Assembly: GCA_002862435.1 (NCBI GenBank) | Contig: PKDC01000017.1 | Location: forward strand, 1 to 64,000 | DNA length: 64,000 bases | Origin: Pseudomonadota bacterium | GTDB taxonomy: Bacteria > Pseudomonadota > Gammaproteobacteria > UBA5335 | Direction of reading: 5' to 3' | Part shown: piece after piece, positions 4,636 to 37,012 of the stretch | Position numbering within the stretch: position 1 is the first letter of the stretch | Layout: each line of letters begins with the position of its first letter | The notes under the pieces: model-generated | Seen by the model: the letters and a program-made list of their open reading frames with translations, nothing else | The model's database searches: none | Told to the model about the DNA's origin: nothing | Program-made: the position numbers and the translations under genes

Positions 4636-5739
4636 TCAAGGCGCCGCATCAAAACTGACGCCCTTGATGAGTGCCCACACCGGCTGTCCCAGAGCAAGAT
4701 CCAGGGTTGCCAGGGATTCGCGGGTGATGCGCGCGCGCAGGTGTGGGTCGCACCCCGGTTGCGCCCCGACCAAGCCGAGCAGCACTTCCGCATAGGCACC
4801 GGCGGGATCGGTGTCAAGGCGAAGCACACGCGCAGCGAGTTGGTTGCGGATGCTGGTGCCCACCACGGGCGCCAGGGCGATGGCCACGTCGCGGGCGCGC
4901 ACCCGCAGCCGCACCGGGGTGCCGACAGGGACTGCTATCTGCGGTAGCGACAGTCGCTGCCCGGCGACCTCGACTTCGGTCAGCACATACTCCGGCACCT
5001 GCGCCGCCACGCGGGCATCGAATACCACACCGCCCTCGAAGGGACCGGAGACGGCTTCCGCTTCCGGTTGCTCCAGCACGGTCTGCACCGCGCCGCGTGC
5101 CACCACGGATCCATTGGCGAGGATCAGCACGTCCCCTGCAAGTTGGGCGACTTCCTCCACCGCGTGCGAGACGTAGAGGATCGGGATGCGAAAGTGCGCG
5201 GGCAACTGGCGGATGTAGGGCAGGAGTTCCACCTTGCGCTTGCGATCCAGCGCGGCCAGCGGCTCGTCCATCAGCAGCAGGCGCGGATGGGCCAGCAGCG
5301 CCCGGGCGATGGCCACACGCTGGCGCTCACCCCCAGATAGGCCCGCGGTGCGCCGATCGAGCAGGGGCAGCAGGTCCAGGGCGGTGATGACCTCGTCGAA
5401 GCCAGGCGCCTCAGCCCCCGGTCGTGCCCGGGCAAAAGCGTAGTGCAGGTTGCCGCGCACCGACCGGTGGGGGAACAGGCGCGCGTCCTGGAATACATAA
5501 CCGATGCCGCGCCGGTGCGGCGGCAGGCAGCGACCGGAGGCGCTGTCCAGGAGAATCTCGTCATCCAGGGTGATCTGCCCGCGTGCGCCGGTCTCCAGGC
5601 CGGCCAGCGCCCGCAGCAGGGTGCTCTTGCCGCTGCCCGACGCCCCCATCACGGCGGTGATGCCTGTGCACTCGATCGTCTCATTGAGGCGGAGCGTGAA
5701 CCCCGGATGACGGACTTCGATCATGCACTCAAGCTTCAT
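4636..5739 (-). CDS. modC: Molybdate ABC transporter, ATP-binding protein
   Basis: A 367-residue ATPase that powers molybdate import. Walker [10 protein letters not shown] lies near residue 32, with signature LSGGERQRV and Walker B LLLMDEPLAAL. The C-terminal third is a Mop/TOBE-type molybdate-sensing domain, typical of ModC and longer than a minimal ABC ATPase. It overlaps the modB stop by four bases (ATGA), so translation is probably coupled. An alternative internal start (MIEVRH) five codons downstream cannot be excluded. It is the last gene of the mod operon. Confidence 0.95.
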   Translation of the reverse strand: MKLECMIEVRHPGFTLRLNETIECTGITAVMGASGSGKSTLLRALAGLETGARGQITLDDEILLDSASGRCLPPHRRGIGYVFQDARLFPHRSVRGNLHYAFARARPGAEAPGFDEVITALDLLPLLDRRTAGLSGGERQRVAIARALLAHPRLLLMDEPLAALDRKRKVELLPYIRQLPAHFRIPILYVSHAVEEVAQLAGDVLILANGSVVARGAVQTVLEQPEAEAVSGPFEGGVVFDARVAAQVPEYVLTEVEVAGQRLSLPQIAVPVGTPVRLRVRARDVAIALAPVVGTSIRNQLAARVLRLDTDPAGAYAEVLLGLVGAQPGCDPHLRARITRESLATLDLALGQPVWALIKGVSFDAAP

Positions 5740-6413
5740 GCGGTGTGCACCGGGTAACGGCGGTTCAGCCCGTAGACCAGCACCAGCACGGCGAAGGAAA
5801 AGGCGAGGAATCCGCCGGCGAGCAGATGCGCCTGGGCGAAATTCAGCGTTTCCACCTGCTCATAGATCGCAATGGAAATGACCCGGGTGCGACCGGGAAT
5901 GTTGCCGCCCACCATCAGCACCACGCCGAACTCCCCCAAGGTATGCGCGAAACCCAGTACGGCGGCGGTGAGGTAGCCGCGCAGCGCCAAGGGGCTCGCC
6001 ACGGTAAGGAACGCATCCAACGGCCGCGCGCCCAGCACGGCGGCGGCTTCCAGCGGTCCGCGCCCGACCGCCTCGAAGGCGCCCTGCAAGGGCTGCACCA
6101 CGAAAGGCAACGAATAGATCATCGAGGCGATCACCAGGCCGCTGAAGGAGAAGGTCAGCGTCTCGCCGGTAAGATCAAGCCAGGCGTCGCCCAAGGGCGC
6201 GTTGGGGGCAAACAGGACCAACAGATAAAATCCCAGCACCGTGGGCGGCAGCACCAGCGGCAATGCGGTCAGGGCTTCGATCAGGGGTTTCATGCGCGTG
6301 CGGGTATGCGCCAGCCACCAGGCGAGCGGCGTACCGACCAGCAGCAGCAGTGCCACGGTGACCGTGGCGAGACGCAGCGTGAGCCAGACCGGGCCGAGGT
6401 CGAGATCGCTCAT
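5736..6413 (-). CDS. modB: Molybdate ABC transporter, permease
   Basis: A 225-residue inner-membrane permease with about five hydrophobic segments. The cytoplasmic loop EAAAVLGARPLDAFLTVASP matches the EAA motif that docks the ATPase. The segment ALPLVLPPTVLGFYLL is typical of ModB. The start lies three bases after the modA stop and the end overlaps modC, so modA, modB and modC form one transcriptional unit. Confidence 0.95.
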   Translation of the reverse strand: MSDLDLGPVWLTLRLATVTVALLLLVGTPLAWWLAHTRTRMKPLIEALTALPLVLPPTVLGFYLLVLFAPNAPLGDAWLDLTGETLTFSFSGLVIASMIYSLPFVVQPLQGAFEAVGRGPLEAAAVLGARPLDAFLTVASPLALRGYLTAAVLGFAHTLGEFGVVLMVGGNIPGRTRVISIAIYEQVETLNFAQAHLLAGGFLAFSFAVLVLVYGLNRRYPVHTA

Positions 6414-6416
6414 GAT

Positions 6417-7181
6417 TCAGGGCAACCGGTAGCCCAGCTCGGCGATCACTGCCCGGGCCGGCGGGCTTTTCAGATAGTCGAGCAAGGCCTTGGCCGCCGG
6501 GTTGTCGCGGGCGCGGGTGATGAGGATGGCATCTTGCTTGAGCGCCGGGTACAGCTCCTGCGGCACTTGCCAGGTACTGCCGGGCTTGCCGCCGGCCAGG
6601 ACCTGCGACAGCGCGACGAAGCCGGCTTCGGCCGCGCCGCTGGCCGTCATGGCATAGGCCTGCCCGATATCCTCCCCCCGCACGATTTTGTTCTGGACGA
6701 CCGACCACAAGCCCAGCTTTTCCAACGTCTGTTGCGCCGCGGCGCCATAGGGCGCGACGGCCGGATTGGCGATCACCAGGTGCCGAAACCCCCCGGTGCG
6801 CAGATAGGTCGCGCCATCGGCACCGAATCGGTCGGGATCCGGACTCCACAGCGCAAGCTGGCCGATGGCGTAGGTGAAGCGCGATGCCGGCACACCGAGG
6901 CCGCTTTGGGCCAGCAGCGCGGGACGTTCCGCATCGGCCGAGAGCAAGACATCGAAGGGCGCGCCCTGCTGAATCTGCGCGACGAACTTGCCCGAGGAGC
7001 CCAGTACCACGGTGAGCTGATGGCCACTCGCCTGTTCGAAGGCTGGCTCGATACGGGTCATGGCGGCGGCGAAATTGGCGGCCACGGCGGCCACGACTTC
7101 CTGCGCCTGCGCAGCGGATGCGGTGATCGCGAACAACGCGGCTACAAACGAGTGGCGCAAGAAAAGGGCTGGACGGGACAT
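6417..7181 (-). CDS. modA: Molybdate-binding periplasmic protein
   Basis: A 254-residue solute-binding protein with a Sec signal peptide (basic start, hydrophobic core, cleavage near AQA-QEV). The mature part has the ModA landmarks VAAVAANF, VLGSSGKF, GAPFDVLLSAD and the late segment QDAILITRA. The start at 7181 has AAAGGAG eight bases upstream; an earlier in-frame ATG at 7217 would extend past that ribosome site. It binds molybdate or tungstate in the periplasm and hands it to ModBC. The OprP-type porin gene immediately upstream may feed it. Confidence 0.93.
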   Translation of the reverse strand: MSRPALFLRHSFVAALFAITASAAQAQEVVAAVAANFAAAMTRIEPAFEQASGHQLTVVLGSSGKFVAQIQQGAPFDVLLSADAERPALLAQSGLGVPASRFTYAIGQLALWSPDPDRFGADGATYLRTGGFRHLVIANPAVAPYGAAAQQTLEKLGLWSVVQNKIVRGEDIGQAYAMTASGAAEAGFVALSQVLAGGKPGSTWQVPQELYPALKQDAILITRARDNPAAKALLDYLKSPPARAVIAELGYRLP

Positions 7182-7244
7182 GGGCTGGACTCCTTTAAGA
7201 AACAAGAATGCGTTCACGAGGTATGGGCACTGCGCGGATAGGAG

Positions 7245-8597
7245 CTAGAAATCCATATGGAGCCGCATGCCCCAGATGGACGGTTCATCACCATCGGCGG
7301 CATTGCCGGGGCGGTCCAGTTCCAGCACTTGGATGTGGTTCAGCATCAGCCGGATGTTGGAGGTGAGATACCAGTTCAGGGCCAGCGTCAGGTTGCGCTC
7401 ATGTCCTCCGATGACTGCGCCATCGTTCAGATCAAGCTCGCTCAGCCGGGCGGCAATTTCCCAGGCTCCCCAGCCGCCGAGGCCAACGCTGGCCAAGGGC
7501 TGTACCCGATCGAATACGCCTTCCGCCACCTTGTAGCCCCGGCGCTCACCGGTCAGCAGCCAGGCTGTTTGTGCATACCAGCCTGAAAAGTCAGTGTCTT
7601 GTGCGGCATCCTTGCCCTCGAGCGCGGTGCGCATGTATTCCGACTGGAAGGTCAGCGGTCCCCACAGCGCCGCCAATTCCGCGCCTGTGGCGAGAACATT
7701 GTCGGTATTGGCCAACACGCCGCTGTCCACCAGATAAACACCCGTGAGGTTTGATTCCGGTTTGGTTCGAAACCGCAGTGCATTGGTGGAGTCGTTGGGC
7801 TCGTGGCGCCGCACGCCAGCGCCGAAGTGGAGGACTGCGTCGGGCGTCAGCACCGGCGCAAAGGTAGCGCGCGCCGCCATATCCCAACCCTCGTCACCTT
7901 CATTGGAGACGTCGCCTTCCGGCCTTTCTCCGAATACACCGGCAGCGGCGCTCCATTGGCTGCCGGATGTGCGCGCCTCGACGCCGATGCCACGGCCAGG
8001 CGTCAGGATGTCGTTGATGCCACGCTCCAGAAAGAGCGTGGTGTTGTCGCTGGTCAGTTGTTCCATGCCAAAGGGTTCTTTGAAGTTTCCGACGGTCAGC
8101 AATGCCGGAGCGAAGCCCTTGTAGCGTAAGTAGGCGTCCGTGACGCCTTTGCTGCGGGTGCTGGTGGTGGCGTTGTCCGCAAATTCGTATTCGAGCATGT
8201 AATCGAAATCACGCGCCAGCGTACCGCGCGCATAGAGCCTGGCGCGGCGTAGGTCGGTGCCGTCGCCCAAGGCCTGCTTGTCCGCTTCATAGGCGGCAGC
8301 ATCGGCCTCGAGGCGTCCGCCGACCTGGAAACTGAAATCGTTGTTCGGGGAGGCGAACTTGAGGCTCTTGCCATCGGAGACGGGACGGATGAGGGTGGCG
8401 GATTCGACCCGTTGGCGTGCGGCGCGCTCCGCATCCAGTTCCGAACGGAGATTACCGACCAGGGTTTCCAATTGATTCAGTCGCTGCTGCATGGCGTCAA
8501 GATCGGTGGATGTTGCTTCGGTTCCAGATGCTGCAGCGTGCGCGGTCCCAACCGCCAGCATGGCGGCCGCGGCGAAAGGTAGGGTTTTGCGAGCCAT
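7245..8597 (-). CDS. OprP/OprO-type outer-membrane porin in the molybdate operon
   Basis: A 450-residue precursor with a signal peptide ending near AHA-AAS. A short coiled-coil segment follows (LDAMQQRLNQLETLVGNLRS) and then a beta-barrel of the phosphate/polyphosphate-selective porin family, with GGRLEADAA, LRRARLYARGTL, FKEPFGMEQLTS and a terminal Phe (LHMDF) recognized by the Bam machine. AAGGA precedes the ATG at 8597. It sits between modE and modA on the same strand. The porin family is known for anion selectivity, so a role in oxyanion (molybdate) entry across the outer membrane is an inference from context. Confidence 0.85.
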   Translation of the reverse strand: MARKTLPFAAAAMLAVGTAHAAASGTEATSTDLDAMQQRLNQLETLVGNLRSELDAERAARQRVESATLIRPVSDGKSLKFASPNNDFSFQVGGRLEADAAAYEADKQALGDGTDLRRARLYARGTLARDFDYMLEYEFADNATTSTRSKGVTDAYLRYKGFAPALLTVGNFKEPFGMEQLTSDNTTLFLERGINDILTPGRGIGVEARTSGSQWSAAAGVFGERPEGDVSNEGDEGWDMAARATFAPVLTPDAVLHFGAGVRRHEPNDSTNALRFRTKPESNLTGVYLVDSGVLANTDNVLATGAELAALWGPLTFQSEYMRTALEGKDAAQDTDFSGWYAQTAWLLTGERRGYKVAEGVFDRVQPLASVGLGGWGAWEIAARLSELDLNDGAVIGGHERNLTLALNWYLTSNIRLMLNHIQVLELDRPGNAADGDEPSIWGMRLHMDF

Positions 8598-33379: not shown

Positions 33380-34808
33380 GCAGATTCCATTGTTGTTGCT
33401 GGCGGTGGGTCTTTCCGGCTGCGTGCTGGGTCCTGATCATGTGCGACCGGAGAGCGATCTTCCCAGCGGTTGGGTGGCGGCCGCGGGAGCAGCCAGCGCG
33501 TCACCAGCAGCGACTGGCGTAGATCCCCAGTGGTGGCGCGCATTCAACGACGCGACGCTCACCGGGCTGGTGGAGGAAGCGCTGCAGCAGAATGCCGACC
33601 TGTCCCTGGCTGCGGCTCGCATCGCCGAGGCGCGCGCGGTGCTCCGGCTGCGGGATGCGGAGCGCTATCCGCTGTTGAGTGGCCAGGCCAACGGCGCGCG
33701 CCAGCAGGGGAGCGAGGAGACAGCGATTCCGGGCGGTGGCACGATCTACAACGACTTCAACGTCTCGGCGGTGCTGAATTACGAGATCGATCTGTGGGGG
33801 CGGCTGGCGCGGGCCAGCGAGGCGGCGCGGGCGCAATTGCTGGCCGGCGTGGCCAGCCGCGATGCCATCCGTCTGGCGGTGGCGGCGGACGTGGCTTCTG
33901 GCTACTTCAACCTGCGTGCCCTGGACCAGCAACTGGCCATCGCCGAGCGTACTGTGCAGACTCGACAGGAGGGCTACCGCTTCCAAGAATCGCGCTATCG
34001 CAATGGCGCCGTTTCCCAGTTGGTGTTCCGCCAGGCGGAATCGGAACTGGCCGCTGCCCGCGCCGAGTTGCCGGCGCTGCGCCAGCAGCGCGTGCTGCAG
34101 ATCAATGCCCTGAGCGTATTGCTCGGGCGCACGCCCCGCGAGATTGTGCAACAGGGGATTCCCGATGGCCGGCCAATCGATGATCTTCCCGCCATGCCGG
34201 AAGTGCCCATGGGATTGCCCTCCGCCCTACTGGAACGTCGGCCGGACATCCGCGCCGCCGAAGCGCAGTTGCAGGCCGCCAATGCCCAGATCGGTATTGC
34301 TCGCGCCGCTTACTTCCCAACCCTGTCCCTCACGGGTGTGTTCGGGACCCAGAGCGATGAATTGAGCAATCTGTTCAACGGACCGGCTCAGACCTGGCAG
34401 TTTGCGGGTGGTTTGGTGGGGCCAATCATTGATTTTGGGCGCACAGAGGCCAATGTCCGCGCTGCCGAGGCGCGCCGTCAGCAGGCGCTGGTGAACTACC
34501 AGCAGACCGTACGCATCGCCTTCCGCGAGGTGCTCGACGCGCTGGAAAGCCGCAGCGCAACCAGCGAGCGACTGGTGGCACAGGATCAGCAGATCACCGC
34601 CTTGCGGGAAACGGCGCGTCTTGCCCAGCGCCGCTTCGACGAAGGCTATTCGGACTATCTTGAAGTGCTGGATGCCCAGCGCAGCCTGTTCACCGTGGAG
34701 CTTTCGCGCGTGACGACTCAGCAGCAGCGATTGCGCGCCCTGGTTCAACTCTACAAGGCCCTGGGCGGCGGCTGGCAGGTGGATGCGCTGGCCCAGGCAG
34801 AGCGCTGA
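33366..34808 (+). CDS. Outer-membrane efflux channel lipoprotein (OprM/NodT type)
   Basis: A 480-residue TolC-superfamily channel. The signal peptide ends in the lipobox LSGC-VLG. Two repeated halves each carry long helices; the segments [20 protein letters not shown] and [20 protein letters not shown] are typical of the NodT family. It completes the tripartite pump. Its last codons and stop (from 34796) fall inside a 69-bp sequence repeated at 36944-37012 and derived from a transposase remnant, so the natural C terminus was probably altered by the adjacent insertion. Confidence 0.93.
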
Positions 34809-34864
34809 ACGCGGCTTTGTGCTTCTGATGTGTTGGGCCGGGATACAGCGGAGGCGTGGTCGCC
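34796..34864. repeat. Left 69-bp direct repeat (RAYT-derived)
   Basis: Aligns without gaps to 36944-37012 with eight mismatches, mostly transitions. It includes the stop codon of the outer-membrane channel gene. Read on the minus strand it continues the transposase fragment at 34870-34994. Confidence 0.93.
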
Positions 34865-34994: not shown

Positions 34995-35021
34995 GATGGG
35001 GAGGAATATAGCCGGGGGCGG

Positions 35022-36719
35022 CTATTTATCTAGACCTGACACTGATGTTCTCTTGACTCTGATGTTCTCATCTAGGTCAGCTAATGCTTTATCAATAACG
35101 TTAAAAACTTCAATAAATCTATTTGTCCAAGCAAAGTCACCCTGGCTTTCCGCCCTAGTCATCAGATTATCTTGGATATTAGATTTTCGACCATCTTTGA
35201 CTTTGAATGGCTCTAGCTCTCCTGAAGCGTCAATTGAGAATGATTCAAACCATGATGGGCTATCTTCATGTATTTTCTTGATCCATTCATCGGGGAACAA
35301 CCCCTCAATAGAAAATCTTGATCTAACAGAAACAAAGTGTTTATTGGCTTCAAAAGGTATTTTGCAGTTACCGAAGTAGTTTTGAAGATCTTTCCTTTCC
35401 TTCTCTCCTGCGTCGTCTCCATCAAAAACTGATACACATGCATATTCATTCCGAATAAACTGATAAGCTGCACGCAGAAAACCAGACAAGTGCTTAACAC
35501 CTCCAAAGTCCTCGAATTTAGCCTTACGCAAAGTTTTTAGCGGGTAATCTTCGGTAGGAAGTTTATCTAAGATCCGCTGAAATATTTCTCGATCTGACTG
35601 GCCTTCAACCAACACGTTGAATTGTGCTAGATTGTAAAAATCACTAAACTTAATACCTAACGCAGATCGAATGGATGATACGGCCTCACTGAACGTTTTA
35701 TATCCATGTATTTCGGTTCTTTTCTTTTCATTCAGTAACGTGGCTGAAACATGTAAAGGATCTTGGGGAACAAAAGCCATTGAGTGCGTGGTTTTAATAA
35801 CGGTTGCATCTTTTGCTAGGTTATCTAATATCGTACTGCAACTTTCGGCTAAATTAGGATGCAGATATGATTCAGGTTCTTCGAGTAACCATAGCACACT
35901 CCGACCTTCTGCTTTCTCTTGCTTAGTAATCCATCAGAATGCAGCAAGAAGGGCTGTAGTTTGGATGCCCATCCCTTTATCTTGAATAAGAGTTTTTTGG
36001 GGGTCATAAACTAAAAAATCAAATCCGGATACTAACTTTTCAATTGATTGGTTTGGCAAAGAAAATCCCGCACTCAAGTCCGTCAAACCAGCAGACTTTA
36101 ACTCCTGATTTAATGAGTTAGACGCTTCTTCTAGGCTTTTTTCAATATCTGAAATATGGGGCTCAATTACTTTGGATACTCTTCGCCTTAAAAAAGGAAT
36201 CAATAGATCACTGTAAATTTGATCTACACTTTTTGCAGATGGAACATAATGTAGACTAAATGAATCTAATATTCGGTTCACTAAACCAATGTGAGTGCGT
36301 GAATATTGAGCTGCTTTGGCTCCCGCTTCTGGCCTTTTCACATTTGGAAAAAAACTATAAACAGGTGTGTTTGTGTCAGTAAAATAAAGGTTCAAACTCA
36401 GCTGGCTTCCAGACCTTTTGGTTCCTTGTAGTTCATGAAGCTCGTCAACCGCTTCATATATTTCATTTTTCTGATCAGGATCACCGTCAAAAGTGGCGAT
36501 AATACTTGTTCGAGCTCGACCCACACCGAAAGTAAGATCAGACTCTCTTCTATAGTTGTATGAATTATTTAAGCCAGTGAATAAGAGCTTGACTGATTTT
36601 AGTAAATTTGTTTTTCCCGAGTTATTAGGCCCCACAATAGTCATGCTTCCTGGGATCTTAAGGTGCTGCTCAGACTCTATCGTCCTGAAGTTTTTAATTC
36701 GTATATCTTTGAGTTCCAT
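35022..36719 (-). pseudogene. OLD-family ATPase/TOPRIM nuclease interrupted by an in-frame TGA
   Basis: A 565-codon frame with a single internal TGA at codon 262 (35934-35936). The first part has Walker A GPNNSGKT (residues 30-37) and ends in GIQTTALLAAF. After the TGA the same frame continues WITKQEKAEG, then the Walker B segment LWLLEEPESYLHP, KTTHS, and a TOPRIM domain with LVEGQSDREIF and VFDGDDAGE acidic residues. Proteins of this type act in phage defence and DNA cleavage. The stop separates Walker A from Walker B, so the short product alone should be inactive. A GTG at 35897 could restart the second part. AAGG precedes the ATG at 36719. No helicase partner is present. Confidence 0.88.
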
Positions 36720-36791
36720 TTAAACCTTCATTGTCTCATTAAGAGACTAACGCTAGGAGAGTTATCAGGGTCAGGGCTATAAACGATGAAT

Positions 36792-36938
36792 TCACCGACA
36801 CGGCCTCACAATATTGCCCACTGTCGTGAAGTGTAGGCCAAAGTAGTCGGCGAGTTGCTGGTAAGAATATCCGCCCGTCGCATAAGCCGCCACGATGGCA
36901 GCATCTCTGTCCGGTGCCCGGCTTTCGATTTCGGTTAA
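36792..36938 (-). pseudogene. RAYT transposase remnant, C-terminal helix-turn-helix part
   Basis: The minus-strand frame encodes LTEIESRAPDRDAAIVAAYA followed by TGGYSYQQLADYFGLHFTTV and a stop at 36792. This matches the C-terminal helix-turn-helix tail common in gammaproteobacterial REP-associated tyrosine transposases. It is cut off from the rest of the gene, which is found in the opposite order at 34870-34994. Confidence 0.8.
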
Positions 36939-36943
36939 CGAGG

Positions 36944-37012
36944 GGCAGGGTGCTGAACGCGGCTTTGCGCTGCTGATGCGTTGGGCCGGGATGCGGCGGA
37001 GGCATGGTCGCC
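36944..37012. repeat. Right 69-bp direct repeat (RAYT-derived)
   Basis: Partner of 34796-34864 (61 of 69 bases identical, no gaps). It lies between the RAYT C-terminal fragment and moaA. A hairpin GGCGGG-AAC-CCCGCC follows at 37045-37059 in the moaA leader. Confidence 0.93.

Follow-up and report, generated by a model that had tools for sequence, protein, structure and literature searches.

Genomic setting and reading frame

The window analyzed here is a stretch of 64,000 nucleotides from a gammaproteobacterial contig (PKDC01000017.1). A gene of the OLD-family ATPase/TOPRIM type spans 565 codons of its minus strand, from 36719 to 35022 (Table 1). The frame opens with ATG and runs through 261 sense codons, a TGA at codon 262, 303 sense codons and a terminal TAG. 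This TGA is the sole internal stop, and reading through it yields one continuous frame of 565 amino acids. When sequence of equal composition was shuffled 2000 times, such a frame contained a mean of 39.5 stops and a minimum of 19. A single stop is therefore far outside chance, indicating that the stretch is a real coding frame. Together with the profile matches given below, this result bears out the proposal of the first-pass annotation that an OLD-family gene has been split by one in-frame TGA. Elsewhere in the window, ORF pairs sharing a frame occur in DNA of high GC content, in which long open frames are frequent, and such pairs therefore say little. A tandem duplication at the gene's 3' end alters the last ~10 codons, and the nonconserved tail exceeds that of the relatives, whose proteins measure 555-558 aa, by about 8-10 residues.

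Table 1. Features of the OLD-like locus (window coordinates)
Feature	Position	Strand	Remarks
Left copy of 69-nt direct repeat	34796..34864	+	overlaps last codons of outer-membrane factor gene
Low-GC island, 39%	35021..36870		surrounding window 63% GC
C-terminal part, codons 263-565 and TAG	35022..35933	-	Walker B/D-loop, H-loop, TOPRIM residues
Possible GTG-restart ORF, 291 aa, without Walker A	35022..35897	-	nothing supports its use
17-nt tandem duplication, two copies, two differences	35037..35070		3' end of OLD-like gene
In-frame TGA, codon 262	35934..35936	-	Arg in four nearest relatives; Leu/Glu/Lys in three farther
N-terminal part, codons 1-261 to TGA	35934..36719	-	Walker A GPNNSGKT (K36), signature-like KGMGIQ (248-253)
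Right copy of 69-nt direct repeat	36944..37012	+	88% identical to left copy

The low-GC island that holds the gene is flanked by an RND-type outer-membrane factor gene and moaA, both named by eye from ORF translations. In two sister species of the genus, the same two genes are adjacent without the island, and their aligned ends lie about 130-150 bases apart. The island is bracketed by a 69-nt direct repeat, of which just these two copies were found in the genome; the repeat is possibly the scar of the island's insertion. Within the island, no Rfam family and no terminator-like site were detected, and promoter-like sites were no more frequent than at the shuffled level. Horizontal transfer most likely brought in the OLD-like gene as an island of one gene. 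A short open stretch on the minus strand at 36795-36935, DAAIVAAYATGGYSYQQLADYFGLHFTTVGNIVR, resembles a helix-turn-helix tail and weakly matches (36%) a 319-aa ORF elsewhere in the genome; it is perhaps a transposase remnant.

No helicase, reverse transcriptase or AriB gene was found beside the window gene or its near relatives. The isolation expected of a Class 1 OLD gene was thus observed, with no UvrD-like helicase or retron present and the relatives solitary too. In the published classification of OLD proteins, a solitary-gene context corresponds to Class 1 (PMC10568477). Since helicase, reverse transcriptase and AriB partners are absent, the window gene looks like a Class 1-like OLD by context.

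Conserved motifs and intact relatives

The read-through protein matched Pfam AAA_15 (PF13175) with an E value of 1.8e-26, and the stop splits this match, profile positions 1-85 falling in the N half and 321-374 in the C half. The match of the C half to the OLD-like TOPRIM PF20469 was weak (E 0.018) and below the family cutoff. Motif numbering was set against Thermus scotoductus OLD (Ts OLD; PMC7049728). The Walker B/D-loop, WLLEEPESYLHP (E280, H287), and H312 of the H-loop lie after the stop, as do the TOPRIM residues E372/D376, D433/D435 and E472. In an eight-sequence alignment of the window protein and seven relatives, the window allele keeps every invariant residue, among them K36 (Walker A), KGMG-Q (248-253), E280/E281, H287, H312, E372, D376, D433, D435 and E472. 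The ATPase motifs of Class 1 OLD are represented among these by K36, E280, H287 and H312, which align with Ts OLD and which, in the window allele, are divided over two reading stretches. The five acidic residues of the Class 1 TOPRIM pattern (E, D, DxD, E) are likewise invariant, with E372/D376 aligned with E377/D381 of Ts OLD and D433, D435 and E472 assigned by motif. These positions agree with the earlier description of a stop falling between a Walker A half and a Walker B/TOPRIM half, with all other motifs intact on both sides. An intact gene would most likely encode a phage-defence nuclease. AlphaFold2 modelling of the intact Guyparkeria relative from a five-row alignment gave a mean pLDDT of 47.8.

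A scan of 84,980 genomes recovered four relatives, L002-L005 (Guyparkeria sp. WRN-7 among them), with identities of 66-71%; each is a single uninterrupted ORF of 555-558 aa. Single ORFs were also found in a relative at 45% identity from a phylum-wide search (L032), in one at 37% identity from a viral-contig scan (L028), and in one on an IncX1 plasmid from a plasmid search (L018). All seven relatives (37-71% identity) are open across the stop position. The one continuous ORF of Class 1 OLD was therefore present in 7/7 relatives examined and is interrupted in the window allele by the TGA at codon 262; for this reason the window gene is termed a broken copy and not a working member. The seven uninterrupted relatives also lead us to reject the alternative that the two halves are normally separate genes, which had been named at the outset as a finding that would overturn the split-gene interpretation.

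The codon matching the TGA in the four nearest relatives is CGA, CGC, CGT and CGT. All four encode Arg and never Trp, which gives no support to TGG as the original codon; the first-pass annotation had proposed looking for strains with TGG here. Because residue 262 varies among the relatives (Table 1), the stop is, as judged from this alignment, a nonsense change at a position that tolerates substitution.

Searches of 4 genus, 9 order, 369 class and 398 phylum genomes yielded one more distant relative, which was intact, and no further copy belonging to the near subfamily. The best relatives in phage records reached just 24-25% identity. No same-species copy of the gene was found that could show when the stop arose. 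In the viral contig (L028), the intact relative (37%) at 4870-7782 directly adjoins an integrase-like gene, an arrangement reminiscent of prophage-borne old genes. An uncharacterised solitary ATPase/TOPRIM relative, mostly intact, was observed on about 180 enterobacterial plasmid records, and the two plasmids examined (L018 and L019) were of type IncX1. In 176 of the 183 plasmid records whose relative reached E <= 1e-30, a single place accounts for 80% or more of the query.

Interpretation of the in-frame stop

Other copies of the family were also found broken. The relative on pEsST410_NW_4 is divided into two annotated CDS, and that in Klebsiella NZ_CP138781 contains an IS5-like element. These copies are cited in support of inactivation of the window gene. 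At sites where the other four of the five nearest sequences agree, changes numbered 26 in the window allele, compared with 25 in L004, 30 in L005, 8 in L002 and 10 in L003. No other stop or internal frameshift was found in the OLD-like gene. Since changes at conserved sites are no commoner than in intact relatives and the frame is otherwise undamaged, these data fit a recent loss. The original suggestion of a very recent loss is consistent with this absence of any sign of long decay relative to intact relatives. Synonymous sites were saturated, making dN/dS unusable.

The main rival to recent inactivation is an artefact of sequencing or assembly at the TGA, in which case the gene would be an intact Class 1-like OLD. 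The remainder of the frame is intact and conserved, and the assembly is a draft of 70 contigs with an estimated contamination of 6.2%, as such an error would allow. Nonsense-giving substitutions in an assembled consensus are, however, uncommon relative to indel errors, and the 17-nt duplication in the tail indicates ordinary sequence drift. An artefact is thus considered unlikely, and we infer that the stop is a real mutation.

Readthrough or recoding of the TGA, by selenocysteine insertion, a suppressor tRNA or a changed code, would yield full-length protein, and the several amino acids tolerated at residue 262 suggest that an inserted residue might be accepted. Against this, the genome encodes RF2, and TGA terminates neighbouring genes, including the outer-membrane factor gene (34806-34808). 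The best tRNA-Sec match, which alone exceeded the threshold and did so narrowly, was tRNA-Ser(CGA). Thus, neither of the marks of a selenoprotein gene was found, with no tRNA-Sec detected in the genome and no Cys at residue 262 in any relative. A TCA-anticodon (opal-suppressor) tRNA was absent from 46 covariance-model tRNA matches, an incomplete survey from which tRNA-Ile is missing. Given RF2, the use of TGA as a normal terminator, and the lack of a detected tRNA-Sec, suppressor or homologous Cys, recoding is the least probable of the explanations weighed, and the earlier proposal that the stop is read through found no support in these features or in the Arg, Leu, Glu and Lys of the relatives.

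It is scarcely more probable that the N part, ending at the TGA, and a C part starting from GTG 35897 are made separately and reassemble as a split enzyme. The GTG restart raised in the first-pass annotation does exist, with AAGG seven bases upstream, and two-gene ATPase/TOPRIM systems are known, as in AriA/AriB of PARIS (PMC10568477). However, the AAGG-like letters follow in part from conserved EGR-V coding, vary among relatives without being conserved as a site, and Walker A would be missing from the product. The seven relatives run as single ORFs across the stop, and the PARIS cut falls between the ATPase and TOPRIM genes, whereas that of the window falls within the ATPase domain. ATP hydrolysis by Ts OLD requires each of K34, H140, E276 and H310 (PMC7049728). 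Three of these, K34, E276 and H310, align with K36, E280 and H312 of the window protein, and a split enzyme would place the three counterparts on two chains. The stop parts K36 from E280 and H312, leaving a complete ATPase in neither part.

Consistent with this separation of residues, the truncated product is predicted to be inactive and the allele null, since residues for ATP hydrolysis and the TOPRIM would be absent from it. The product would keep Walker A and lack the Walker B, D-loop and H-loop residues and the whole TOPRIM. Escherichia coli YbjD without its TOPRIM (residues 1-377) keeps anti-phage activity, while an ATPase-deleted construct is inactive (PMC13261556). This activity would count against a null allele, although the window fragment (residues 1-261) is shorter: the YbjD construct holds far more of the ATPase domain, inside which the window part ends. 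A related suggestion is that two reassembling polypeptides are made, or a little full-length protein through leaky termination, so that the stop would limit the dose of a costly defence nuclease instead of being a null mutation; we regard this as very improbable, if a shade less so than the split enzyme as such.

Collectively, the best reading is an OLD gene that is recently inactivated or polymorphic. We propose, with a probability of roughly 0.8, that a stand-alone Class 1-like OLD gene was gained horizontally and would then have been inactivated recently through one nonsense change, at codon 262. The silencing of a toxic defence gene by one base change, as first suggested, is no more than a plausible motive. 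The window gene, whose stop is common to no relative, most likely represents a recently broken example of a familiar type of gene. It would be an ordinary instance of the gain and loss of defence-type genes, one further case in which such a gene is gained horizontally and quickly lost. A stop that proved leaky by design would matter more, and nothing found points there. The locus also points to a little-studied subfamily of intact, solitary OLD genes in Guyparkeria, other gammaproteobacterial genomes and enterobacterial plasmids. This subfamily is a candidate for phage defence, and its plasmid relative looks worth testing.

Comparison with known systems

On IncX1 and other enterobacterial plasmids, an AAA-family ATPase (e.g., WP_194446389.1 on p25DN-A) is 35-37% identical to the window protein over 99% of its length. 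This uncharacterised protein has the same domain order in one ORF. Unlike the window gene, it is plasmid-borne, intact in most records and enlarged by insertions (633 aa).

GajA of Gabija, a Class 2 OLD, has a homologous ATPase/TOPRIM, with profile E values of 2.5e-11 to PDB 8WY4 and 1.4e-16 to PADLOC GajA. Gabija was rejected as an identity for the locus, no GajB helicase being found either in the window or next to the near relatives. AriA of PARIS (AriA/AriB, a proposed Class 4 OLD) was the PADLOC top match to the window ATPase part (E 3.8e-28). PARIS, in which ATPase and TOPRIM are separate genes, was likewise rejected, the relatives being single ORFs with no AriB gene. The break in the window gene precedes Walker B, unlike the PARIS gene boundary.

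Class 1 OLD proteins (Ts OLD, PDB 6P74; P2 Old; E. coli YbjD) differ from the window gene in lacking a TGA interruption, and its identity to the characterised members is low; the DUF2813 match of the window protein was just 2.5e-6. Like the window gene, Class 1 OLD is an isolated single gene encoding an ABC-type ATPase followed by a TOPRIM, and is of similar length (528 aa versus 565 in the window). The window protein has residues corresponding to the Class 1 set at K36, E280, H287, H312, E372/D376, D433/D435 and E472. Its match to PADLOC Old had an E value of 1.1e-27, and Ts OLD was its best match among solved structures (profile E 1.7e-15), ahead of GajA.
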